DNA from: an uncultured Chlorobiaceae bacterium
GTDB lineage: Bacteria > Bacteroidota > Chlorobiia > Chlorobiales > Chlorobiaceae
Direction: 5' to 3'
Assembly: GCA_903822595.1 (NCBI GenBank)
Contig: CAIJPS010000043.1
Coordinates: forward strand, 1-64,000
Length of the DNA stretch: 64,000 nt
The position numbers and the translations under genes were made by a program. The notes beneath the pieces are model-generated. The model did not search any database, was not told the DNA's origin, and worked only from the letters and a program-made list of their open reading frames with translations. Below, piece after piece: positions 3,400-15,770 of the stretch; position 1 is the first letter of the stretch, and every line of letters starts with the position of its first letter.

Positions 3400-3634
3400 G
3401 AAACTTGGCTTCTGGTTGATCTATCACACTTGCCTGCTGCTTAACTCTTAACTGCGTTGATGAGAACTACTCTCAGAGATAAGTGAGTATTAATATACAC
3501 AAGAGCTTTGATTTAGAGCGGTTTGGGGTGCGGGTTTTTTTACGTTGCTTCGATAGATATTTCTTGTTATTTATAAAAAGATTTCGGTATATTTTTATTT
3601 GATATTTGTATCTATAATTTTAAGGGGGTGAGGT
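3400..3634. promoter_or_regulatory. Divergent intergenic region before phage head module
   Basis: This gap separates the minus-strand helicase from the plus-strand phage module and must carry promoters for both. Base composition switches sharply near 3610, from AT-rich to the G/T-rich phage style. A very strong ribosome-binding site (GGGGGTGAGG) sits just before the ATG at 3635. No integrase, repressor or attachment repeat is seen here. Confidence 0.4.
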
Positions 3635-4339
3635 ATGAGTGGTGATGGTGTGGATGGGGGAAAGCCTGGTGCCGGGGATGCCGGGACGGCTTATCAGGGC
3701 GGGAAGGGCTCGCCTGCTCAGGGGCGGAGCTATTCGCAGGCGGAGGTTGATGCGTTGGTGGCCGGGAAGTTGGAGGGGTTTGCGGGGGTTGATGTTGAGG
3801 AGTATCGGGCGTTGAAGGTGGCGAAGGCTCGGCAGGAGCGGGAGGCGCTGGAGAAGCGGGGTGATTTTGAGAAGATTTTGGCGCAGACGGTGAAGGAGAA
3901 GGATGAGGTGATCGGGTTGCGGGAGAAGGATATTTCGGCGCTGGGTGAGCAGTTGCGGACGATCAGGGTGGATAATGCTTTGCTTGCGGCGGCTTCGGCG
4001 GCGAAGGCGATCAGCCCGGCGCAGATTGTGACGTTGTTGAAGGGGTCGGTGCATTATGATCAGAAGTCGGATTCGGTGGAGGTGCGGGAGAACGGGGCTC
4101 CGTTGTACCGGGACGGGAAGCCGGTGTCGGTGGAGTTGTTTGTGCAGGAGTTTTTGCAGGCGAATCCTCATTTTTTGCCGGCGGGTCCGTTGGGGAGCGG
4201 GGCTGGTGGTGGGACGGGGGTGGCCGCTGGTGGGTCGGCGTTTCGGTTGAGTGTGGAGGATGCCCGGGATCCGGCGAAGTATCGGGCGGTGCGGGAGGCG
4301 GCGCTGAAGGCTGGGAGGATGGTGGAGATTGTACGATAA
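3635..4339 (+). CDS. Phage scaffold-like protein
   Basis: This 234-residue protein lies directly upstream of the coat protein, the usual place for a scaffold. It starts with a Gly-rich, low-complexity stretch (residues 1-30), then a charged helical segment (about 60-120, rich in Lys, Glu and Arg, likely coiled coil), and ends with another Gly/Ala-rich linker and a short helix. This layout suits an internal scaffold or minor structural protein of the GP20/DUF4355 kind. No catalytic motif is visible. The start is supported by a strong Shine-Dalgarno sequence. The function is inferred from position and composition rather than from a recognised motif. Confidence 0.6.
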   Translation: MSGDGVDGGKPGAGDAGTAYQGGKGSPAQGRSYSQAEVDALVAGKLEGFAGVDVEEYRALKVAKARQEREALEKRGDFEKILAQTVKEKDEVIGLREKDISALGEQLRTIRVDNALLAAASAAKAISPAQIVTLLKGSVHYDQKSDSVEVRENGAPLYRDGKPVSVELFVQEFLQANPHFLPAGPLGSGAGGGTGVAAGGSAFRLSVEDARDPAKYRAVREAALKAGRMVEIVR

Positions 4340-4357
4340 CTTAAGAGGAGATGAGAG

Positions 4358-5497
4358 ATGGGTACGAATGTGTTGAGTATTTATGATCCTTATTTTTATG
4401 CGAATGAGGGGTTGATTGCGTTGGAGGCTTCGTTGGGGATGGCGGCGCGGGTGCATCGTGGTTATGACAAGGAGTCGAAGGCGAAAGGGAGTACGATTGA
4501 GATTCGCCGTCCGGGTACGTTTGTTGCCCAGGATGCGCCGTCGAGTGACCAGAATGTGGAGGCTTCGGGTATTGAGATGAAGCTTGATTACTGGAAGGAG
4601 GTGAAGTTTTCGCTGACGGACAAGGAGTTGACCTTTACGGGTGAGGAGATTATCAAGGAGCATATTCGTCCGGCGGTGTATGCGCTTTCGAAGGATATTG
4701 ATTCGAAGTTGAATGGGTTGGCGGAGTATGTGCCGTGGTATGTGGATGCGCAGGCGACGACGTCGATTGATGATTTGACGGGGGTGAGCCAGGTGATGTT
4801 TGATAACAGGGTGCCGATGGATAACGGGAATTTGTCGCTGGAGGTGGGTTCGACGCTGCGGGCGGGGTTCCAGAAGTTGTTTGCGAGTAATAATCTGGCT
4901 GGCGCGGCTTCGCAGGAGGTGTTGAAGACGGGGCATATCGGGAATTGGCTGGGGTTTGAGATTTTCGGGAACCAGAATGTGGGGTCGCATGTGAAGGGTA
5001 GCTGTTCGGTTACGGCTCTTGCCATCAATGGTGCGTTTGCGAAGGGGGTGACGACCATTAATCTTGATGCGGCGGCGGTGACGGGGACGCTGGTTGCCGG
5101 GGATTCGTTTGCGATTACGGGTGACGGTCAGCGGTATGTGGTGGTGAACAGTGCTCCGGTGACGGCGTCGGGGAATGCGTTTACGGGGGTGCAGGTTTAT
5201 CCTCCGCTGGCTCAGGCTGTGTCTGATAATGCGGTGGTGACGGTGAGCCTGATGAATTTTACCAATAACCTTGCGTTTCATTCTCATGCGTTTGCACTGG
5301 GTATGGCCCCCCTGTCGGACATTGGCGAGAAGCTGGGCAATGCGAAGGTGGCGAGTGTGGTTGACCAGAGGACGGGTTTGGCGATGCGGTCACGGATTTG
5401 GTATGCGCCGGATGCGTCGGCGGTAAAGGTGGCGCTGGATGTGTTGTACGGGGTGAAGTGCCTGGATGGGAATCTGGCTTGCCGGTTGAGGAAGTAG
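4358..5497 (+). CDS. Major capsid protein, P22 coat type
   Basis: This 379-residue protein resembles the P22 phage coat family (HK97 fold). The N-terminal part has a RRPGTFVAQDAPS segment, followed by the long helical spine (about residues 85-125). A region rich in small residues and beta strands at about 220-300 fits the inserted I-domain-like module of P22 coat, and the chain returns to the capsid core at the C-terminus (LCxxxx-type end YGVKCLDGN). It would form the icosahedral shell around the scaffold encoded just upstream. The ribosome-binding site AAGAGGAG stands before the ATG. Family assignment is from reading motifs and neighbours. Confidence 0.75.
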   Translation: MGTNVLSIYDPYFYANEGLIALEASLGMAARVHRGYDKESKAKGSTIEIRRPGTFVAQDAPSSDQNVEASGIEMKLDYWKEVKFSLTDKELTFTGEEIIKEHIRPAVYALSKDIDSKLNGLAEYVPWYVDAQATTSIDDLTGVSQVMFDNRVPMDNGNLSLEVGSTLRAGFQKLFASNNLAGAASQEVLKTGHIGNWLGFEIFGNQNVGSHVKGSCSVTALAINGAFAKGVTTINLDAAAVTGTLVAGDSFAITGDGQRYVVVNSAPVTASGNAFTGVQVYPPLAQAVSDNAVVTVSLMNFTNNLAFHSHAFALGMAPLSDIGEKLGNAKVASVVDQRTGLAMRSRIWYAPDASAVKVALDVLYGVKCLDGNLACRLRK

Positions 5498-5522
5498 GAG
5501 AAGATCGAGGATGAAACGAAGA

Positions 5523-5541
5523 GGGCGGGATGACCCCGCCC
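5523..5541. repeat. Palindromic repeat copy 1, GGGCGGGATGACCCCGCCC
   Basis: A G/C-rich imperfect palindrome lies between the coat gene and the next phage gene. The same 19 bases occur in reverse orientation at 38455-38473, far outside the island, with extended similarity on both sides (AG before, TAC after). It resembles the short hairpin repeats scattered in many bacterial genomes. It could act as a processing or attenuation hairpin between the two phage genes. Confidence 0.7.
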
Positions 5542-5557
5542 TTACATGGAGGCAGAG

Positions 5558-6007
5558 ATGATTTTTTGTGATGACAGTGATTTGATGCGGGTGCAGCCTT
5601 ATGTGTTTGAGCAGGGGGTGGCTTCGTTTGAGGAGTTGCATGAGGTGGCGGGTGATGAGGTGGTGCGGGATGTGCGGCGGTATTGGGGTGGGGCGTATGG
5701 CGATACGCCCGTACGGGTGATGAATTTTGATGCTGAGAGGCTGAATCCGGTGCAGTGGAACATGGCTGCGGTGTATCGGGTGTTGGGGTGGCATGTGTTG
5801 CCGTTGCTGCATTCGTCGGTGGTGTTGGATGGGACGTCGGTGGCGGTGGATGGGATGGGGCTGAATGAGTTGCGGTTGTTTTACCGGGCGGCTTACGATG
5901 AGGAGTTTGCGGCGGTGTTGGGGGCGGGGCTGGAGTATGATTTGGGGAGTGGGTTCGTGGTGGTGAACCGGCGGTCGGTGGCTGAACTTCAACGGTTGCG
6001 GAGATGA
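5558..6007 (+). CDS. Phage head-tail connector-like protein, unrecognised family
   Basis: This is a protein of about 149 residues in the phage module. The ATG at 5558 is preferred over the ATG at 5546 because GGAGG lies 5-6 bases before it. It is acidic and mixed alpha/beta with no catalytic motif. Its place right after the coat gene and its size fit a head-completion or head-tail adaptor protein. The next gene overlaps its stop codon. A perfect hairpin (stem GGGCGTAT/ATACGCCC, 5691-5710) is embedded in the coding sequence and encodes part of the segment WGGAYGDTP. Confidence 0.5.
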   Translation: MIFCDDSDLMRVQPYVFEQGVASFEELHEVAGDEVVRDVRRYWGGAYGDTPVRVMNFDAERLNPVQWNMAAVYRVLGWHVLPLLHSSVVLDGTSVAVDGMGLNELRLFYRAAYDEEFAAVLGAGLEYDLGSGFVVVNRRSVAELQRLRR

Positions 6008-6348
6008 GTGTTACGGATTTGAGTTATTTGCCTCAGGTGTGCAATACGGGGATTGTGCAGGGTGCTGACCGGGTGCTGGGGTTTTCGTTTGTGGTGGATG
6101 GGGTGCCTTATGATTTGGAGGGGACGGATCCGCTGATTACGATTACGAGTCGGTCGGGGGCGGTGGTTGCGGAGTTTACGGTGGCGGGTGGCGGGCTGGC
6201 GGTGTTGGGGAATGTGCTGGTGTGGTCGGTGTCGGCGGCGGTGTCTGTGGGGTTTGCGGTTGGGAGTTATTCGTATCGGGTGATTTTGCGGATTGGTGAT
6301 GAGTTTCGGCCTTATGTGTATGGGTCGTACAGGGTGGTGGTGCGATGA
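6004..6348 (+). CDS. Small phage structural protein, beta-rich, unrecognised
   Basis: This 114-residue protein overlaps its neighbours at both ends by 4 bases (ATGA), indicating tight translational coupling. The sequence is almost all beta-prone, with short strands separated by Gly and Asp turns, and resembles an immunoglobulin-like domain as found at the N-terminus of baseplate or fibre proteins. It directly precedes the variable receptor-type protein and could be its adaptor or particle-anchoring partner. That link is inferred from gene coupling only. Confidence 0.45.
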   Translation: MSVTDLSYLPQVCNTGIVQGADRVLGFSFVVDGVPYDLEGTDPLITITSRSGAVVAEFTVAGGGLAVLGNVLVWSVSAAVSVGFAVGSYSYRVILRIGDEFRPYVYGSYRVVVR

Positions 6349-7553
6349 GTGTGGATGTTTCAGTTATTCCGGCTTCGTTGTTGGATATTTCGGTGGTGCC
6401 TTCGGCTGTGGTTACGGTTGAGTTGGGGCAGTATGGGTTGCGGGGTGCGCCGGGGGTTCAGGGTGTTCAGGGGGTTTCGGCGGTGATGGTTGAGGGGTAT
6501 TTTTTTCGGGGTTGTGCGTTGTGTGGGGGGAATGACCGTGCTGGCGGGAAGTATGCGGGTTCTGTGTTGGCTGTTGAGCGGCGTTCGGTGTCGGTGCCTT
6601 CGATGTTGGTGAATGTTGGGGGTGTGGCGTTGCTGGCTGAGGTGGGTGTGGCGCTGGATTTGGATGTGGCTGGGTGTTGGGATAGTGGTGGATATGCGAG
6701 TGCCGGGAACAGGGCCGGGAGGGATTTTTTTGTGTATGCGTGTGTGCCGGTGAGTGGGTCGGTGCCTGATTTTGTGGTGTCGGCACAGAGTGCTGTTCCG
6801 TTGGCGATTCCGTCGGGGGCGGTGCCGTCGGTGGCTAATTCGCGCAAAATTGGGGGGTTTCATTGTGTTTGTGTGGGGGTTGGGGTGATTGGTGGTCATG
6901 ATTTGAGTGGCTATCTGGCTGGTGATGTGTTGCCTCGATCGGTGTGGGATTTGGATTTCAGGCCGGTGTGTTCGCCTGGGGGGATGGTGTTTGGGAGGCA
7001 TGGGCAGTGGGTGGATATTTATTTGCCGTCGGTGGGTGGTGGTGAGTTGGTTTCGGTGTTTGGGGGTGGGTTTGTTTCGGGTTCGGGGGGTGAGCGGTTT
7101 CATGGGTATAAGTTTGATCAGTGGTTTGGTCGGGTTGGGAAGAGGCCTATTGGGAGTTTGGAGTTTGTGGCGGCGTCGCTGGGGTCGAATCAGGGGACGA
7201 TTATTAGTCCGTTTGCTCTTCCTGCGGGTGCGGGTGGGCATGTTGATACGGTTGGGCGGAGGATGGTGAGTGGTATTGGGTGTGAGGATATGTGCGGGGT
7301 GGTGTTTCAGTTGGGGCGTGAGGAGGGTGCGAGCCCTGGGAGTGGGTCGTATGGTGCGGCGTTTGATGGTAATGATAGTGGTGTGATGGGGTTTCATGCG
7401 TCGGCTCCTTCGAGGCCGGGGTTTGGGGGGAGCATTTATATTGCGGCTTCGTATTGTGGGTCGCGGTGTGTGAGTTGGTCTTTTACGCCGTTGTCGCTTT
7501 CGGGGAGTTGTTCTTCGCGGGGGGTTTCGGAGTTGGCTCCTTGTCGTTTTTAA
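6345..7553 (+). CDS. Mtd-like receptor-binding protein with DGR variable C-terminus
   Basis: This 402-residue phage protein has three parts. Residues 1-45 end in a short collagen-like glycine repeat (G31 to G43, one glycine every third residue). A central body follows, with the segment AGGHVDTVGRRMVSGIGCED that I associate with C-type-lectin-fold DGR targets. The last 45 residues (GGS..., ...CGSRC..W..., ...RGVSEL) align by eye with the variable domain of Bordetella phage Mtd, in which GG, GSR, W and RGV are fixed and the residues between vary. In this tail the varied positions use codons ending in C or T (agc, att, tat, agt, tct, ttt, ctt, tgt), whereas the rest of the gene writes Ser as tcg; this is what AAC/AAT template codons would leave after adenine mutagenesis. 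The gene overlaps the previous one by 4 bases and lies 10 bases upstream of terminase. It is probably a host-binding tip protein. Confidence 0.75.
   Translation: MSVDVSVIPASLLDISVVPSAVVTVELGQYGLRGAPGVQGVQGVSAVMVEGYFFRGCALCGGNDRAGGKYAGSVLAVERRSVSVPSMLVNVGGVALLAEVGVALDLDVAGCWDSGGYASAGNRAGRDFFVYACVPVSGSVPDFVVSAQSAVPLAIPSGAVPSVANSRKIGGFHCVCVGVGVIGGHDLSGYLAGDVLPRSVWDLDFRPVCSPGGMVFGRHGQWVDIYLPSVGGGELVSVFGGGFVSGSGGERFHGYKFDQWFGRVGKRPIGSLEFVAASLGSNQGTIISPFALPAGAGGHVDTVGRRMVSGIGCEDMCGVVFQLGREEGASPGSGSYGAAFDGNDSGVMGFHASAPSRPGFGGSIYIAASYCGSRCVSWSFTPLSLSGSCSSRGVSELAPCRF
7431..7550 (+). other. Putative DGR variable region (VR)
   Basis: These are the last 40 codons of the receptor-type protein. Fixed residues GG, CGSRC, W, RGVSE frame positions that all have NNC or NNT codons. 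The pattern fits adenine-directed substitution from a template repeat with AAC/AAT codons. No near-copy that could be the template repeat, no Avd gene and no reverse transcriptase are present in the window. Confidence 0.6.
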
Positions 7554-7563
7554 TGGGGGTGTG

Positions 7564-8799
7564 ATGCGGTTTGCGATTGATAAGGGGCGGATGCTCCCCC
7601 ATCAGCGGGCGTTTTGGGAGTTGCCGAATTTTGTGAAGCTGCTGGTTGGGGGGTATGGGTGCGGGAAGACGCGGATTGGGGCGTTGCGGTCGATTTGGAG
7701 TTCGGCGGTGAATGCGCCGATTCCGGCGTTGTATGTGTCGCCGACGTATAAGCAGGCGAAGAAGACGGTTGTGCTTTCGATCAGGGAGATTCTGGACCGA
7801 GGCGGGGTGCGGTACCGGTATAACAAGACGGATCATGAGTTTTTTATTCCGGGGTGGAACGGGACGATCTGGATTGCCAGCGGGGATGAGCCGGAGTCGT
7901 TGAAGGGGCCGAATTTGGCGACGGCGGGGATTGATGAGCCGTTTTTGATGAAGGAGGAGATTTTGCAGGTGGTGTTGTCGAGGCTGCGGCATCCGGATGC
8001 GAGGTTGCGGGAGCTGTTTTTGACGGGGACGCCGGAGCAGTTGAATTGGGGGTATGAGCTGGCTCAGAATGTGGATGGGCGGTATGATTTGGGGACGGTG
8101 ATCGGGCGGACGGCGGATAATGTGCATTTGCCGGGGCAGTTTGTGGCGATGCTGGAGCGGGCGTTTGACGAGAACCAGCGGGCGGCCTATATGGAGGGGC
8201 GGTTTGTGAATCTGGTGGCGGGGCGGGTGTACCGGCATTTTGAGCGCTCGATGGTGGCGGAGCGGGCGGTGCCGGTGGGGGCGGAGGTGATGGCGGGGAT
8301 TGATTTCAATGTGGATTATCTGACGGCGGAGCTGTTTTTTGTTGCGGGTGAGCGGGTGCATTTTTTTGATGAGATCCGCCTGTCGGATGCGACGACGTTT
8401 GAGTTGGCGGAGCGGTTGCATGAGCGGTTCGCGGGTATCAGGGTGTTTCCTGATCCATCGGGCAGGGACAGGCGGACTTCTTCGCTGGCTTCTGATTTTA
8501 CCATTCTGCGGGACAAGGGGTTCAGGGTGGAGGCCCGCCCTGCTCATCCGCCGGTGCGCTCCAGGGTGAATGCGGTGAACCGGCTGTGCCGGGAGGGGCT
8601 GCTGACGGTTTCGGCGAAGTGCGCTCATTTGTTGCGGGATATGGATCTGGTGCGGTGGCGAAACGGGGAGATTGACAAGGTGACGAATCCGGCGCTGACT
8701 CACGCTTCTGACGCGGCGGGGTATGCGGTGGAGAAGTTGTTTCCGGTTCGGCTGCCGGAGCGGGTGTATGGGAGGGAGCCGGGGCATTGGAGGGCTTGA
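7564..8799 (+). CDS. terL: Phage terminase large subunit
   Basis: This 411-residue protein packages DNA into the prohead. The ATPase part has Walker A GGYGCGKT (Lys35) and a Walker B-like segment ending in GIDEP. The coupling motif follows as LTGTPEQ. The nuclease part starts near AGIDFNV and has a second acidic site in FPDPSGRDRR, as in RNase H-fold terminases. The ATG at 7564 is chosen over the GTG at 7561 because a run of five G lies just ahead of it. Unusually, terminase and portal come after the capsid and receptor genes instead of before them. Confidence 0.88.
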   Translation: MRFAIDKGRMLPHQRAFWELPNFVKLLVGGYGCGKTRIGALRSIWSSAVNAPIPALYVSPTYKQAKKTVVLSIREILDRGGVRYRYNKTDHEFFIPGWNGTIWIASGDEPESLKGPNLATAGIDEPFLMKEEILQVVLSRLRHPDARLRELFLTGTPEQLNWGYELAQNVDGRYDLGTVIGRTADNVHLPGQFVAMLERAFDENQRAAYMEGRFVNLVAGRVYRHFERSMVAERAVPVGAEVMAGIDFNVDYLTAELFFVAGERVHFFDEIRLSDATTFELAERLHERFAGIRVFPDPSGRDRRTSSLASDFTILRDKGFRVEARPAHPPVRSRVNAVNRLCREGLLTVSAKCAHLLRDMDLVRWRNGEIDKVTNPALTHASDAAGYAVEKLFPVRLPERVYGREPGHWRA

Positions 8800-8832
8800 G
8801 TTTCGAAGAATAGGATTTATGGGAGGGATAAG

Positions 8833-10206
8833 ATGAGCAAGAGGGCGGAGCTGGAGGGGGTGCACCGGGTGTATCGGGAGCATTGTGGGGAGTGGGAGTT
8901 TTTTCGGACGGCTTATTTGGGTGGCCGTGAGTGGGAGGAGGCTGGGTTGTTGTATCGGTATGTGCATGAGTTGGGGCCGGAGTTTGCGGAGCGGTTACGG
9001 CAGACGCCGATGGAGAATCATTGTAAGTCGGTGGTGCATACGTATAGCGGGTTTATTTGGCGTGTGCCTCCGAAGCGGAGTTTTGGGGCTTTGGAGGGAA
9101 ATCGGGCGGCGGCGGCGTTGAACGGGAATGCGGATAAGGAGGGCGGATCGCTGAATGAGGTTATGAAGGAGGTGCAGATTTGGTCGTCGGTGTTTGGGTG
9201 TGTGTGGGTTGTGATGGATAAGCCTGCGGTTCGGGGGGCGACGAAGGGTGATGAGATCAGCAGGGATATTCGGCCTTATTTGAAGGTTTATTTTCCGGTG
9301 CATGTGCTGGATTGGCGGTTTGAGGAGTCGGGGTCGGGGTGTTATGAACTGACCTATTTGAAGGTGCGGGAGCGGGTTGATGGTGCGGATGGCTCTGTTT
9401 GTGGGGGGTGGGTGTACCGGGTGTGGACGCGGGAGCGGGTTGAGGTTTGGCGGGTTGATGGCAGGGATGATGAGGCGGTGCTGGTTTCGGAGGGGGTGAA
9501 TGAGGTTGGTGTAGTGCCGGCGGTGGTGCATTATAATACGAAGCCGCTTGAGCGTGGGGTTGCGGTGAGTGATTTGCAGGATGTGGCTCGGATGCAGCGG
9601 TCGATGTATAATGATATGTCGGAGCTTGGGCAGATGGTGCGGGGGTCGAACCATAAGACACTGGTGAAGAATCGGGGGGATGATGCTTCGACGGGCGCGG
9701 GCGGGGTGATTGTGATGCATGAGGATACGGTGCCGGAGAAGAAGCCCTATTTGCTGCAGGCGGATGCGGAGGCGCTGCTGGGGTTGTTGCAGGCGCTGGA
9801 GATGAAGGTGGAGATGATTAACCGGATGGCGCATTTGACGCCGGTGCGGACGTATCGGAGCCAGGTGGCGTCGGGGGTGGCAATTGAGACGGAGTTTCAG
9901 ATTTTGAATACGCTCCTGGCGGAGAAGGCGGCTCAGCTTGCTGTTACGGAGAATCAGTTGTTCAAGATTTTTTGCCGCTGGGAGGGGGTGGATTATGATG
10001 CGGCGAATGTGGTGGTGACGTACCCGCAGCGGTTTGAGCTGAGGGATAGAAGGGCTGATCTGGATTTTTTGGTGCGGGCGAAGGAGGTGACGGCGAAGAT
10101 TGGGTCGCCGACGTTGCAGCGGGAGATTGACCGGCAGTTGGCGCGGGTGGTGCTGGAGCGGGATGATGTGTTAGAGGTGGTTGAGGGGGAACTGGGTGGG
10201 GGCTAG
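8833..10206 (+). CDS. Phage portal protein (DUF4055-like)
   Basis: This 457-residue protein matches portal proteins in size, composition and position next to terminase. The N-terminus has helical clip-like segments (YREHCGEWEFFRTAYLGG). The middle has YLKVYFPVHVLDW followed by a beta-rich segment. The C-terminal third has a long helix (LLGLLQALEMKVEMINRMA) and a segment with E-TEFQ-LNTLLAEKA typical of DUF4055 portals. It would form the dodecameric DNA channel at one vertex and receive the terminase. The start is preceded by GGGAGGGA. No tail genes follow: the phage module stops here. Confidence 0.75.
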   Translation: MSKRAELEGVHRVYREHCGEWEFFRTAYLGGREWEEAGLLYRYVHELGPEFAERLRQTPMENHCKSVVHTYSGFIWRVPPKRSFGALEGNRAAAALNGNADKEGGSLNEVMKEVQIWSSVFGCVWVVMDKPAVRGATKGDEISRDIRPYLKVYFPVHVLDWRFEESGSGCYELTYLKVRERVDGADGSVCGGWVYRVWTRERVEVWRVDGRDDEAVLVSEGVNEVGVVPAVVHYNTKPLERGVAVSDLQDVARMQRSMYNDMSELGQMVRGSNHKTLVKNRGDDASTGAGGVIVMHEDTVPEKKPYLLQADAEALLGLLQALEMKVEMINRMAHLTPVRTYRSQVASGVAIETEFQILNTLLAEKAAQLAVTENQLFKIFCRWEGVDYDAANVVVTYPQRFELRDRRADLDFLVRAKEVTAKIGSPTLQREIDRQLARVVLERDDVLEVVEGELGGG

Positions 10207-10382
10207 GCTTCCCTACCCGCAGTTGCAGGCCGCAGCCTAATGTGCCTGTCTGCAATTTGCACTGTTTTTTTTGATCAGGCTGTTTCAAGCGAGCAGTCCG
10301 GCGCAGCTAAGCACCTCGGTAGAAGCGTTGCATTTTGGGCAGATGGAAAAAATCAAAGCATGTGCGGGAATGCACAAAAACA
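10207..10382. other. Gap between phage module and TIR gene, with one copy of a short repeat
   Basis: This convergent gap contains, at 10262-10282, the sequence CTGTTTTTTTTGATCAGGC. It resembles in inverse orientation the repeats at 11821-11860 and 12832-12872. The G/T-rich phage composition ends at the portal stop codon. No terminator with a clear stem and T-run is seen. Confidence 0.4.
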
Positions 10383-11297
10383 CTAGCTTTGCGCGGCTTT
10401 ACACTCAAGGTTCAATGGATTGATGGGTTGTGCATCGGCTGAGGCTCCGAGTGGGGCTTCAGCATCAAGCCATGCCTGATACGCCAAAGATGCAGTAGGC
10501 GTACTCAAAGCAATTGACGATTCCGAAGAGCCGGAACCAGAAAAAGAGAAGCCCAGTAAATCAGTAAATAGATCTCTCTGTTGCTCAGATGGTATGTGAG
10601 CGCGCTGGCACGCAATGAGATAAGCACATGCAATATGCTCCCAAACGGCGACTTCAGACTTAGGATGAACGTCGCGCTGAAAGTTCGTAATCATCTCAGC
10701 AAGATTCATGGGCACGGCCTCACTTAGTACCGCATGAACTAACCGAATTCTGACAAGCAATGATGTTGGGAGCGTAGTGTGCTGTATTGGGCCAAGTTTC
10801 AGACCAGCGATTGGCACATCTGACGGGGTTGCCCTCTTTATAGCTTCCCGCCACAGTAACCAGCGCTGAAGATTGGCGAAAATTTCTGGACGAGCAACTT
10901 TGACAATTCGCAGACCAATTTGCTCGATCGAAAGCGAGTCGGTGGCAACTGCCACTTTGTCGGCGAGCGTTGGGCTAACTTTTCGAATATCGCTGGCGCC
11001 AACTTTGTGCCACACAGGAAGAATCGTCTTTCCGTAGGCAATTTCCTTCGAGACAAGGCCGGCAAGTTCTTGCTTAGGCCACCCTTTCAAAAAAAATGAC
11101 GGGCTAAGGATAACAACTCCGAAACGTGAAGCGGCAAGCCCCATATCTATCGAGCGAGAGAGGCTGTCACCCATGCCCAGTGTGAATTCATCATACCAAA
11201 CAGCTACACCAAGAGATCGAAGAAATACACTCAGCGGACGAGCGACTTCCGCTTTGTCTTCAGAGGCGTGTGAGATGAATACATCGTATGGAGTCAT
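10383..11297 (-). CDS. TIR-domain protein
   Basis: This 304-residue protein starts with a TIR domain (residues 4-135): the first strand motif YDVFISHASEDK, the region WYDEFTLGMGDSL, and SPSFFLKGWPKQEL in which Glu77 sits at the position of the catalytic glutamate of NAD-degrading TIR enzymes. The remaining ~165 residues are helical and belong to no family I recognise; they may sense the trigger. Bacterial TIR proteins of this kind act in antiphage systems by depleting NAD or producing cyclic ADP-ribose signals. It lies beside a phage module and two other accessory genes on the same strand. The start follows no strong ribosome-binding site. TIR identity is firm; a defence role is inferred. Confidence 0.85.
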   Translation of the reverse strand: MTPYDVFISHASEDKAEVARPLSVFLRSLGVAVWYDEFTLGMGDSLSRSIDMGLAASRFGVVILSPSFFLKGWPKQELAGLVSKEIAYGKTILPVWHKVGASDIRKVSPTLADKVAVATDSLSIEQIGLRIVKVARPEIFANLQRWLLWREAIKRATPSDVPIAGLKLGPIQHTTLPTSLLVRIRLVHAVLSEAVPMNLAEMITNFQRDVHPKSEVAVWEHIACAYLIACQRAHIPSEQQRDLFTDLLGFSFSGSGSSESSIALSTPTASLAYQAWLDAEAPLGASADAQPINPLNLECKAAQS

Positions 11298-11358
11298 TGG
11301 AGAACGCTTTTGTAAAATAAGTGACGCCAGAAGAGACCTTTTGACAAACTTGTTATCC

Positions 11359-11784
11359 CTACTTAACTAAAGCTTCTGCTTGAATCCAAAGCTCATCAGC
11401 ATTGCCAACTCTGAAATAAACATCTTCTGTTCCTCCACCAGACCCATGAAGTATTTCCCATTGCGATACCGAAGGATTATTCCCAAACGCTGCTCCACCA
11501 TCCGCTTGCCATTGCCCATTTTCATCTGTGATATCATAAACGTAAGAAAGGCAAGGATGCCCATTAAATTTCTTTATATCTGACATTGGGAGAATTGCTA
11601 TCAATAATGAGTGTTGGCCGTTGCACTCAGAATGATCACATTTAAAGGCCACTTTAAAATCTGGTCGCCAATCATCTATAGCTATCGGATTTACCCACCA
11701 TGACCAGCCAGCCAAATCAAAGAATGCCGCCCATTTTGCTTCAAGACGAGTTTTGAACTCAAGTCCTTTATATTGTGAAGACAT
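11359..11784 (-). CDS. Unrecognised 141-residue protein, possibly nuclease-like
   Basis: The N-terminus reads YKGLEFKTRLEAKWAAFF, then WRPDFKVAFKC. A start with R-L-E-A-(K/R)-W followed some 25 residues later by a (R/P)-P-D segment is typical of small phage and accessory proteins with a restriction-endonuclease-like fold, in which Glu15 and Asp42 would bind metal. The usual final (D/E)xK is not clear (AFK at 46-48), so the nuclease idea is weak. Two cysteines and a histidine (CDHSEC at 50-55) could bind zinc. It lies 61 bases upstream of the TIR gene on the same strand, so they may be cotranscribed. An AGAGG motif precedes the ATG. Confidence 0.5.
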   Translation of the reverse strand: MSSQYKGLEFKTRLEAKWAAFFDLAGWSWWVNPIAIDDWRPDFKVAFKCDHSECNGQHSLLIAILPMSDIKKFNGHPCLSYVYDITDENGQWQADGGAAFGNNPSVSQWEILHGSGGGTEDVYFRVGNADELWIQAEALVK

Positions 11785-11820
11785 AATATTATACCCTCTG
11801 ATTATTTGTGATAAAATTGC

Positions 11821-11860
11821 TTAGACTAATCCGCCTGATTTTGAAAAAACAGACAGCTTC
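11821..11860. repeat. Short intergenic repeat, copy A
   Basis: The segment begins TTAGACTAATCCGCCTGATT and continues with a run of A and CAGACAGC. It shares most positions with the segment at 12832-12872 and, inverted, with 10262-10282. All three lie between genes of the TIR / TerB-BRCT array. Just beyond it, at 11886-11898, GGTTAGCCGCGCG resembles one arm of an integron attC site, but the second arm is not convincing. Confidence 0.5.
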
Positions 11861-11910
11861 AGGACCGTCGCGCCTGCAATGAATGGTTAGCCGCGCGCCA
11901 TTTCAATGCA

Positions 11911-12798
11911 CTATTGATCTGATACTGCATCGTGAAAGTCATTTTCATGAACGATTACTATCGTGTGCCCTGCCCTTCTAAGCTCTACTGCCTTCTCGAC
12001 TTTGCGCCCGTAACAGGCATATGCCCAACACGGATTTCCGTCTGCACCAACGACCAGATAGTTAACCTTCTTGGAGACCCCGCTTGCAGCCTTCCCGCCG
12101 AGGCTGAAGATTAGTTCTTCAAACTCAATCCGTGTGTACTTATGAGATTGTCCGGTAAGGCAAAAGACAGCGTCAGAAAACGCTATTTCCGGACATACAG
12201 CGCAGAGACCAACGATATTTGAACCCTCAAGGAATACCGGGCTAACAATCGTTTTGTTATCGAGGATAGATACAAACTCACCGAAGAAAGTCATTAGTAT
12301 CTTGTGCTCATCGGGATCGATCTTCTTGTCAGATAGAACGCTGGTGACGAGACTTTCAATTTCATCATATGGCCAGCACCGCCTCAGGTGTTCATGCTTT
12401 TCTAACCACACGGACAGACCCTTTAGCTCTTCAACAGATATTTCGCCATCTGAAGCGATGCCCGCAACAAGGGCGTGAAGCTTTTGCATATCCGCGGTAG
12501 CGGCATTGAAATACTCCGCAGAAGTTAGGCGTTTGCATAGCCACGATATATCCGCTCTTTCATCCTCGGTAAGGACGCCATCGGCAACGGCTTGCTCAAC
12601 TACCGGAAAGAGCTCATTGAAAGGATGTCTTCCAGAATTAATTCGATGGTCGTCTAACCATGCCCGAAGGAAGTCGATTTCGTTGTCGTTTATTTTGGCA
12701 TCAATGGCAATGCCTTCTACCAAGCCCATGAGGGAATTGACCGCCTTCTCAAACTCAGCCTTTCCTGTGAACTTCCTGTATGCGTCATGGTCGCTCAT
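11911..12798 (-). CDS. TerB-like / BRCT-domain protein
   Basis: This 295-residue protein has, by reading, two TerB-like helical units. One covers about residues 10-90 (EGIAIDAKINDNEIDFLRAWL) and the other about 95-190 (AGIASDGEISVEELKGLSVWL); both show the acidic D-G/A-x-I-x-x-x-E loop. The C-terminal ~85 residues form a BRCT domain (FCLTGQSHKYTRIEFEELIFSLGGK, then VNYLVVGAD and KVEKAVELRRAG), like that of NAD-dependent DNA ligase. The ATG at 12798 is chosen because GGAGAGAG stands 5 bases before it; a longer frame reaches 12825 without such a site. BRCT-TerB proteins occur in accessory and defence islands and may recognise DNA ends or stress signals, but the function is not established. Confidence 0.8.
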   Translation of the reverse strand: MSDHDAYRKFTGKAEFEKAVNSLMGLVEGIAIDAKINDNEIDFLRAWLDDHRINSGRHPFNELFPVVEQAVADGVLTEDERADISWLCKRLTSAEYFNAATADMQKLHALVAGIASDGEISVEELKGLSVWLEKHEHLRRCWPYDEIESLVTSVLSDKKIDPDEHKILMTFFGEFVSILDNKTIVSPVFLEGSNIVGLCAVCPEIAFSDAVFCLTGQSHKYTRIEFEELIFSLGGKAASGVSKKVNYLVVGADGNPCWAYACYGRKVEKAVELRRAGHTIVIVHENDFHDAVSDQ

Positions 12799-12831
12799 AT
12801 CTCTCTCCATTGCGTAAAGCGGCAAACATTA

Positions 12832-12872
12832 TTTAGCCTGATCCGCCTAATTCTAAAAAAGCAGGCCGTTCC
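12832..12872. repeat. Short intergenic repeat, copy B
   Basis: The segment starts TTTAGCCTGATCCGCCTAAT and continues with a run of A and GCAGGCC. It matches copy A at 11821-11860 over about 28 of 36 positions. It lies immediately upstream of the TerB-BRCT gene, on the other side of that gene from copy A, so the gene is bracketed by direct repeats. Confidence 0.5.
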
Positions 12873-13029
12873 TCTCTGTTTAAAACCTACATACCCGATG
12901 GCCACAGCCCTACTTCATCCTTCAACAAGTCGGGACAGTAGCTCCCGTTTGCATTTTTATCTACAGGCAAGATATTGCTGAAACAGCACAATAAGAAAGG
13001 ATCAGCAAAAGAATTACCGGTTTTTGTGC

Positions 13030-13195
13030 TCAAAATAGCGAATTGTGTACGTCGAGGAGGTAGTCGGCGAGGTCGAGGCCCTGGGTTCGGTCGGTAGGGG
13101 GGTGGCTTGTTTTTCGAGGATGGAGAAGCGGAAGCTGGGGGCTCTCGTCAGTTCTGGAAGCGGCGGGTGAGGGGAGGGGAGCGGCTGATAACAAA
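13030..13195. other. G-rich remnant, probable decayed gene end
   Basis: The plus strand of this stretch is strongly G-rich like the phage module, although the flanks are AT-rich. On the minus strand, two frames joined by one shift give a plausible protein C-terminus (FRFSILEKQATPLP, then GLDLADYLLDVHNSLF and a stop). No family is recognised. It may be the decayed end of a phage or integration gene next to the island boundary. Confidence 0.3.
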
Positions 13196-13298
13196 TAAGG
13201 CATCTACTGAACTTTGCAAAAATTCGACAATAATTTTAGGTATAGATTTAGGTATAACATTTTTTCATTATTCATTAAAAGCCTATGAATAAAAGCTT

Positions 13299-13320
13299 TT
13301 CGACTCCCGCCATCTCCACA
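13299..13320 (+). pseudogene. ssrA: 3' end fragment of tmRNA gene (ssrA), island attachment site
   Basis: The fragment contains the T-loop TTCGACT, the 3' T-stem strand CCCGC, the acceptor strand CATCTCC, and a discriminator A. The acceptor strand would pair with GGGGATG, giving the G3-U70 wobble that marks tmRNA. The complementary 5' T-stem strand is missing just upstream, so the gene is broken exactly at 13299. A strong terminator follows at 13324. Integrating elements commonly use the ssrA 3' end as attB, so this is read as one att half-site. The intact gene should lie left of the window. Confidence 0.72.
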
Positions 13321-13323
13321 AAA

Positions 13324-13351
13324 GGCCCGTCTGACAAGGACGGGCTTTTTT
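13324..13351 (+). terminator. Rho-independent terminator, probably of ssrA
   Basis: Stem GCCCGTC/GACGGGC (13325-13331 with 13339-13345), loop TGACAAG, and six T. It lies directly after the ssrA 3' fragment and is probably its native terminator, left behind when the island entered. Confidence 0.85.
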
Positions 13352-13607
13352 GTTGGCAAGTTGAAGTAATTGTATCTGATTTCCGGAAAAAAGCTTTGTT
13401 ATTTCCGTGAAATTTATTACTATTTTAACGTAATTTTTCTGGTTTGCGTTCAAGGTGACAAAAACCATAAGAACTTAATTATACAGGTAGCTGCAAGATT
13501 TTGTGGTTATCGGTTTTTCCTCTCAGCTTGAACTTCCGATTAAGAGAAATTGCTTTGGCTCCGGCTGGAGTAGCATAAAGCATTTTTAAGACGTATCATA
13601 CCCAAAA

Positions 13608-15770
13608 GTGAGTCCGGAAATTTTCAACCTCCTGAAAATTACTGATATGCCTATTTCTCCCCCATCAACTCCCCGGCATTACATTGTTGTTGTTCATGGC
13701 ATAGGTGAACAGAGGCTGAACGAGACAATTCCTCCGTTTGTACATCGCTTTGCCGAGGTAAGGCAGAACAAAGAGGAAAAATATGACATTATTCTTCCTG
13801 CCACGCAATCCTCACAATCAGTACGTTCTGCAACAGAGCTGCATGGATGGGCTGAATATCGGGGAATTCCGATAGCGGACAAGGGGGGAAAGCCGGATGA
13901 AAAATTTGACGGCTCACACGCAACAGAAACAGCCGGTGAGAACTTCCGGTTTGTTGAACTGTATTGGCAGGATATTCTCAAGCGCCATCAGGAGCTTTTT
14001 GCATCGGAGACCGAAGTGTGGGCCAAGGCATTGCTCAATCGTCTTAATGACGAAAACATGACACCTCCCGAATGGTTACCCTCCTGGGCCGTTCCGATGC
14101 TCGAATCAATTGTCAACACAGCTATTCCTCTCAAACAAATGCTGGTGCTGAAATATGCGCCGCTGGTGAAAACAATTTTTGACGGTTATCTCGGAGATGT
14201 ACATCTGTATGGCGATTATGCCCGTACGAGAGGTGAGGCGGTCCGGCTTTTTCATCTCGAACTCGACAGGATCATCTTCAATGATTTTCTCGATTGGCGA
14301 AAACGTGAGCTTGATGCAGGCAAGCTTAATGGAGGGTTGTTCAGCCCAGTCCCCTATCAGAAACCCGATATAACCATTATCGCTCACAGTCTTGGTAGTA
14401 TTATGAGTTTTGATGCGCTTGTCTATGCTTTTATAACAGAAGAGATACGAATGGCATCAGCAGAAAGCATCAGATTTTTTTCAAGTCTGCCGTTTCAGGG
14501 TTATACAACACCATTGCCAGGTGAGGAGGATATTCATGACATAAAGAGAAAAAAAATCGAGGCGTTTGTTCGTGATGTGGAAGCGTTGCTGAATGAAGAG
14601 CATGCCGAAAAGGTTCAGTGCAGCATTCAGCAATATTGGGAACATTTTCTTGATGGATTCAGAGACCAGAGTCTTATGAGTCAGTCAAAACCAGAAATAC
14701 CACCATTGTTTAATAGACTGACGCCAGAGGGAATTCCTCTTCTTCTTTGGAGGACTCAGGTGAAAAATTTCATCACTCTCGGCGCTCCCATCGATAAATA
14801 TGTGGTGATGTGGCACAAGAATTATCTGCATCTTGATTTGATGATCGAACGGTACGACAAGCTCCGGTCCAGTGAACGCCAGTATGACTTTCCTGAACCA
14901 TCCAACACCATAAGGCATTATAATTTCTGTGACGAGCAGGACCCGGTCGGTCATCATCTTGATCTGACCAGAAACAAAACAAGGGTCTATAAAAAGTTGT
15001 TCGATATATCCGATACAGAAGGTCGTGACGTTGTTTATCGGCGTTACGCAGTGCCGGGTGTTGCTCACCTTATGTACTGGAAAGACAAGGAGTTGTTCAG
15101 AAATATACTGTGGGAAATTATTGACAGGAAACCGGGGAAAGAAGAGGATGCCGAGAAGTTTCGCAACGTAAAGAACGCGAATGTACAGGCTATGGTATGG
15201 GCTTATTTTCGTGTCCCTTTTATTGCGGCTCTCATTACCGGAATAATTATTGCACTCGGTATTCATGCCCATTTTACCGATGAGCCGTTAAAAATGATTC
15301 TATCGTTTTTGATGGCCTTGTTTTTGTGGATAATACCTGCGTTTCTGACCTACTACAAAGAAAAAACAAGCTATCACGGGGTGCATCAGTCAAGATTTAA
15401 GCTATTTAGGAATAACATTGTTAATCCCGGGATATTTACAAGACTGATTGTTGCAGCTGTTGAATGGAGGCGAATACTCTTGACTCAAAGTGAGGGAGAA
15501 AGCGATTGCACTGATAAAAATAGCCGCCTGGTTTTCCAGAAAAAAGGGGACAAGGGTATTTGGTGGCCTTTTGCATGGCGCTGGTTATACAGAATGGCGG
15601 TAACAGCCCTTTTGCTTTATTTTACGATTGGAATGATTGATTTTCCTGATTTATTTCATAATGAAGTACGGTTGGGGATTGCAGGGGGCTTGTTATGTTA
15701 TGTGATTTCAATGATGATTGTCCTGGTTCAATATATCTCATTGATGAGAAAATATGCCGGAAAAAACTGA
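13608..15770 (+). CDS. Membrane-anchored alpha/beta hydrolase-like protein
   Basis: This 720-residue protein starts with a hydrolase strand and oxyanion-loop motif (YIVVVHGIGEQR, about residues 24-35). A nucleophile elbow reads IIAHSLGSIMSFDAL near residue 260. A later segment (PVGHHLDLTRN and AVPGVAHLMYW) may supply the acid and histidine. The C-terminus has hydrophobic helices at about 525-575 and 660-715, so the enzyme is likely tethered to the inner membrane. It resembles lipase/PGAP1-like hydrolases; the substrate is unknown. It starts with GTG at 13608; an ATG at 13647 lies just before the first strand and is an alternative. It is the first gene right of the ssrA boundary. Confidence 0.65.
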   Translation: MSPEIFNLLKITDMPISPPSTPRHYIVVVHGIGEQRLNETIPPFVHRFAEVRQNKEEKYDIILPATQSSQSVRSATELHGWAEYRGIPIADKGGKPDEKFDGSHATETAGENFRFVELYWQDILKRHQELFASETEVWAKALLNRLNDENMTPPEWLPSWAVPMLESIVNTAIPLKQMLVLKYAPLVKTIFDGYLGDVHLYGDYARTRGEAVRLFHLELDRIIFNDFLDWRKRELDAGKLNGGLFSPVPYQKPDITIIAHSLGSIMSFDALVYAFITEEIRMASAESIRFFSSLPFQGYTTPLPGEEDIHDIKRKKIEAFVRDVEALLNEEHAEKVQCSIQQYWEHFLDGFRDQSLMSQSKPEIPPLFNRLTPEGIPLLLWRTQVKNFITLGAPIDKYVVMWHKNYLHLDLMIERYDKLRSSERQYDFPEPSNTIRHYNFCDEQDPVGHHLDLTRNKTRVYKKLFDISDTEGRDVVYRRYAVPGVAHLMYWKDKELFRNILWEIIDRKPGKEEDAEKFRNVKNANVQAMVWAYFRVPFIAALITGIIIALGIHAHFTDEPLKMILSFLMALFLWIIPAFLTYYKEKTSYHGVHQSRFKLFRNNIVNPGIFTRLIVAAVEWRRILLTQSEGESDCTDKNSRLVFQKKGDKGIWWPFAWRWLYRMAVTALLLYFTIGMIDFPDLFHNEVRLGIAGGLLCYVISMMIVLVQYISLMRKYAGKN

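Follow-up and report, generated by a model that had tools for sequence, protein, structure and literature searches.

A probable orphaned target of a diversity-generating retroelement, an Mtd-like gene, in the adhesin slot of a Chlorobium phage module

The major tropism determinant (Mtd) is the textbook gene kept changeable by a diversity-generating retroelement (DGR): Bordetella phage reshuffles Mtd by means of a reverse transcriptase (RT). Related to the gene described here are 80 loci in IMG/VR, of which 55 carry a template repeat just downstream of mtd, with mismatches to the end of mtd falling on template adenines. Such template/variable pairs also occur in three further IMG/VR loci and in the phage record Caudoviricetes sp. 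vir525 (BK063673). Downstream sequence of 1.5 kb or more is available for 56 relatives: an RT gene lies shortly downstream of mtd in 46 of them and is absent in 10 (about seven of these independent); no RVT_1 match was found on the whole records of these ten. Four of the RT-less loci (L028/L029 and L055/L056) align with the loci L026/L030 on either side of exactly the 1.2 kb template–RT stretch. As judged from these alignments, they represent clean deletions of template and RT, in two lineages, that left the variable region fixed. In another RT-less locus, L046, two variable-region-like segments stand in tandem behind the Mtd gene (~6780–7000).

The window, which is the whole 64-kb stretch of DNA that was analysed, shares its left end with contig C43, which is 104 kb long and belongs to a draft Chlorobium genome of 3.04 Mb (109 contigs, 97.6% complete). 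An intact open reading frame of 402 codons occupies positions 6345–7553 of the plus strand, inside a phage module with the following features:

3530–10206, plus strand: the entire phage module, delimited by DNA similarity to a second copy on contig C53 and by skew boundaries
3635–4339, plus strand: head scaffolding protein (PHROG 206, 5e-14)
4358–5497, plus strand: major capsid protein of P22 coat type (PF11651, 7.5e-32; PHROG 283, 3.4e-66)
5546–6007, plus strand: small module gene, present in all module copies, without a family match
6004–6348, plus strand: small module gene preceding the adhesin slot (PHROG 1084, 1.2e-4; weak BppU_N)
6345–7553, plus strand: Mtd-like receptor-binding protein gene, 402 amino acids (PF21916, PHROG 11262, family profile, predicted fold)
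6345–6377, plus strand: start of the mtd gene, DNA common to the slot gene of C53 (end of the blastn block 3530–6377)
7425–7532, plus strand: variable-region-like segment, residues 361–396, GGSIYIAASYCGSRCVSWSFTPLSLSGSCSSRGVSE, aligned to relatives' variable regions that have verified template repeats
7561–8799, plus strand: terminase large subunit (PF03237, 1.5e-13; PHROG 2, 5.9e-33)
8833–10206, plus strand: portal protein (PHROG 145, 5.3e-52)

The gene at 5546–6007 is possibly a head–tail adaptor. No tail, integrase or replication genes were recognised in the ~6.7 kb module, and its flanks are free of phage structural genes, with a PLD-helicase gene on the left and a TIR-domain gene on the right. 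The phage head context described in an earlier, sequence-only reading of this DNA was correct: a P22-like coat and scaffold lie on one side of the gene, and terminase and portal on the other. Because 7 bases separate the mtd stop codon (last base 7553) from the terminase gene (first base 7561), there is no room downstream for a template–RT cassette.

By direct family match, profile comparison and predicted fold, the gene is a true Mtd homologue, in agreement with the Mtd-type receptor gene that the sequence-only reading had proposed. The Pfam family mtd_2nd (PF21916) matches the product directly (1.2e-8; 35.7 bits, cut-off 24.6), and the PHROG 11262 'tail protein' profile matches residues 124–396 (1.7e-34). 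A PDB search with the single sequence gave no match; there, Mtd was reached only by a family profile built from 23 members, which retrieved six Bordetella Mtd chains over positions 120–398 with E values of 2e-37 to 1.2e-35 (1yu4 at 2e-37). The AlphaFold model, with a mean pLDDT of 67, is good at residues ~70–240 and poor in the variable segment, and its five best PDB matches are all Mtd (1yu0–1yu4; E values of 1.1e-11 to 6e-10).

The protein shares with Mtd of Bordetella phage BPP-1 (PDB 1yu0–1yu4, 2iou) profile homology over residues ~120–398, a predicted fold aligned over ~360–380 columns at 20% identity, and a C-terminal variable segment. It differs in having another N-terminus, and its locus differs in being without template, avd and brt and in having no hairpin that was found downstream of the gene. 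Four members of the same Mtd family, in vir525 and the loci L017, L025 and L030, are ~40–53% identical to it, and the last three share the pattern GG..CGSR..W..PL.L...SRGV with the Chlorobium protein; unlike the Chlorobium gene, all four have template and RT directly downstream. The RT-less IMG/VR genes L018, L028/L029, L032/L033, L046, L047 and L055/L056 resemble it in having an Mtd body and a variable segment with no RT on record; L083 resembles it in its Mtd body, likewise with no RT. These genes lie in other phage backgrounds and retain a conserved Trp; in L018/L032 a small hairpin persists downstream. The product is probably used as an adhesin, that is, as a host-receptor-binding protein.

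The fixed residues of the variable-region-like segment (GG, CGSR, W and RGV) are kept in 21–22 of 22 relatives (the V in 17 of 22), which bears out the Mtd-like tail with fixed GG, GSR, W and RGV that had been recognised by eye. Identity to the Chlorobium segment is 0.11 at the 11 sites that read AAC/AAT in the relatives' templates and 0.62 elsewhere in the segment (label permutation, P = 5e-5), a contrast that leaves mutagenesis of the Chlorobium copy itself unproven because the relatives as a whole also agree poorly at variable sites. On this alignment, the likeness of the segment to a DGR variable region exceeds chance, and the segment probably descends from a mutated template. It is one codon longer than the segments of the relatives, whose conserved first Trp is absent.

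The codon endings proved less telling. In 11 relatives with templates, 100% of the AAY-derived codons end in C or T. The variable residues of the Chlorobium copy had been described as all NNC/NNT, which holds for 9 of the 11 AAY-site codons; the exceptions, codons 384 and 386, both read TCG, a codon not obtainable from AAC/AAT by adenine mutagenesis. The contrast claimed with a gene body rich in tcg, gcg and ccg exists but is slight (excess at the 11 sites, binomial P = 0.014; C/T-ending contrast inside the segment, Fisher P = 0.016), as 45% of gene-body codons already end in T or C. Over the whole mtd gene, third letters are G in 53%, T in 42%, C in 3% and A in 1% of codons. As a fingerprint of adenine mutagenesis, the codon endings are confounded by a module-wide bias, 90–96% of third positions in this copy being G or T. 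Such a fingerprint alone can mislead in genome segments of strong strand bias.

This bias belongs to a strand asymmetry of the entire module. In both copies present in the genome, GC skew reaches approximately +0.3 to +0.55 over most of the module, together with an excess of T, and the edges of the asymmetry are sharp at the module ends (3530–10206 in the window; 7110–14614 in the C53 copy, L110). Third codon positions of the shared module genes are G or T at 89–96% in both copies. The value is highest in the mtd gene, at 0.96 against 0.50–0.61 in the phage relatives, a strong bias that suggests a long residence of mtd in the module. Elsewhere it is milder (0.68–0.80 in genome G014) or neutral (G051 and G038), and in the terminase gene of C. 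phaeovibrioides it is reversed, with a third-position G/T of 0.17.

The second module of the same genome, identified on contig C53 by blastn, aligns with the window in two blocks, 3530–6377 (85%) and 7561–10202 (90%), with no alignment between them, and its slot carries another adhesin gene in place of mtd. In a further Chlorobium genome, the similarity of the slot protein extends to about residue 40 (tblastn, 53% over residues 10–41); the slot genes of C53 and of that genome are different genes with a related N-terminus. The six genes common to both module copies have dN/dS values of 0.10–0.52, and are therefore under purifying selection. Modules of other Chlorobium (for example C. phaeovibrioides BrKhr17 and Chlorobium sp. 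N1) have the same order of scaffold, coat, small genes, adhesin slot, terminase and portal; they differ in having Lcl_C-domain or GP38-adhesin-like slot genes, often a holin or CHAP lysin, and no Mtd. No other Mtd-bearing copy of the locus was found in 198 related genomes or by a single-protein scan of the genome contigs. A search with the coat protein led to same-genus genomes of Chlorobium and of uncultured Chlorobiaceae. The compact module is present in about ten Chlorobium genomes, where its neighbours are often restriction genes or others of defence-like character. The copies are as follows:

L110 to L117 and L014: module copies in the present genome (G000, contig C53) and genomes G051, G014, G037, G005, G052, G061, G011 and G038

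The reading that we favour, with a probability of about 0.8, is that the gene is an orphaned, frozen DGR-target Mtd that was swapped into the adhesin slot of a podovirus-like Chlorobium module. The C-terminal lectin-type binding surface of its ancestor would have been the DGR target; template and RT would have been lost or never transferred, the binding face then being fixed and used as is. The Mtd body replaced another adhesin between the gene at 6004–6348 and the terminase gene, with the module's own N-terminal end kept, so that the module would combine a constant N-terminal anchor with an exchangeable receptor-binding body and change specificity by swapping whole adhesins rather than by adenine mutagenesis. 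The sequence data show the membership in the Mtd family, the fold, the variable-region motif, the lack of template and RT in the assembly and the slot swap, whereas we infer the adhesin function, the past diversification of this copy and the order of loss and transfer; loss of the template–RT cassette and a frozen copy are favoured because of the comparison with the relatives. The Chlorobium locus and the orphan relatives indicate that DGR targets deprived of their machinery can survive as fixed adhesins and are exchanged like cartridges by phage modules.

As far as the assembled genome allows it to be judged, the gene is not part of a working DGR. The sequence-only reading had found neither RT nor template in the 64 kb, which stands and now extends to the whole assembly: no template repeat for 7425–7532 was found by BLAST or by a pattern search with 3 mismatches in this 97.6% complete draft, where a search for a near-copy differing only at A positions had been advised, and contig C43, the window included, has no RVT_1 match. 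Nor is there an avd or HRDC gene near mtd. A bAvd search gave a sub-threshold match on contig C74, which was rejected as an accessory gene, its region consisting of kinase–Lcl_C genes with no RVT_1 match. That the machinery acts in trans on a target still active, from an unassembled part of the genome, a plasmid or another phage, is improbable. The assembly is a draft, remote DGR targets are on record (Nat Commun 2021, PMC8144416), and a template could lie on a piece missing from the 109 contigs, whose completeness is 97.6%. Against this, the RT lies directly behind mtd in most relatives, no near-copy of the segment with up to 3 mismatches exists in 65 same-genus genomes (64 and its own), and the two TCG codons are incompatible with adenine mutagenesis. 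The A content of the mtd gene, ~0.11, also makes its element an unfavourable place for a template rich in adenine. A source beyond the left edge of the window, as had been envisaged, finds no support; that edge is the contig end and nothing is visible beyond it. A search for a DGR-type RT had been recommended; the genome has five RT matches, all on other contigs and none assignable to mtd. One is an RT–Cas1 fusion (L002, 1294–3474, contig C83), two at contig ends are, by appearance, probably group II intron RTs, and two are DGR-type RTs, L005 (C63) and L006 (C28). Each of the latter has an HRDC gene, a template and an FGE-sulfatase-type target of its own, a full set that could in principle diversify mtd in trans; their templates match the FGE-sulfatase variable regions and not mtd, and an adenine-mismatch scan of the mtd segment against the other compared contigs, C63 and C28 included, gave no template. 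Their action in trans was rejected on the basis of these templates and targets and is highly improbable.

It is likewise unlikely that the segment was never a DGR target here, the Mtd-like lectin fold having diverged in the ordinary way and the match to templates reflecting family likeness. The extra codon, the missing first Trp, TCG at 384 and 386 and the weak codon statistics would fit such a history, but DGR targets make up nearly all of the relatives for which enough sequence is available, and divergence is concentrated at template-adenine sites. For its target to be recognised, BPP-1 depends on a hairpin downstream as well as on the IMH (PMC3240598). The Chlorobium gene has no convincing hairpin and little space for one before the terminase gene; none is detectable in most RT-bearing relatives either, which makes a hairpin of little use as a discriminator, and one is present in the two nearest relatives. 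An orphaned, frozen Mtd also has a place in a broader and more tentative proposal, which we consider somewhat doubtful: that the ~6.7 kb module is a distinct mobile or satellite-like Chlorobium element that alters its target specificity by swapping adhesins, the captured frozen Mtd among them, and passes through a strongly strand-biased mutational phase. Such a phase, if true, would explain G or T at ~90% or more of third positions and the sharp boundaries at the module ends.

Lcl_C domains, which occur in slot genes of other Chlorobium copies, also form a separate cluster on contig C74 (L131, L132). No RT is present there and the Avd-like open reading frame is sub-threshold; the Lcl_C copies show weak adenine-biased differences, and some are fused to Ser/Thr kinases with 'YYWSSTEDGAGNAWYQ'-like ends.
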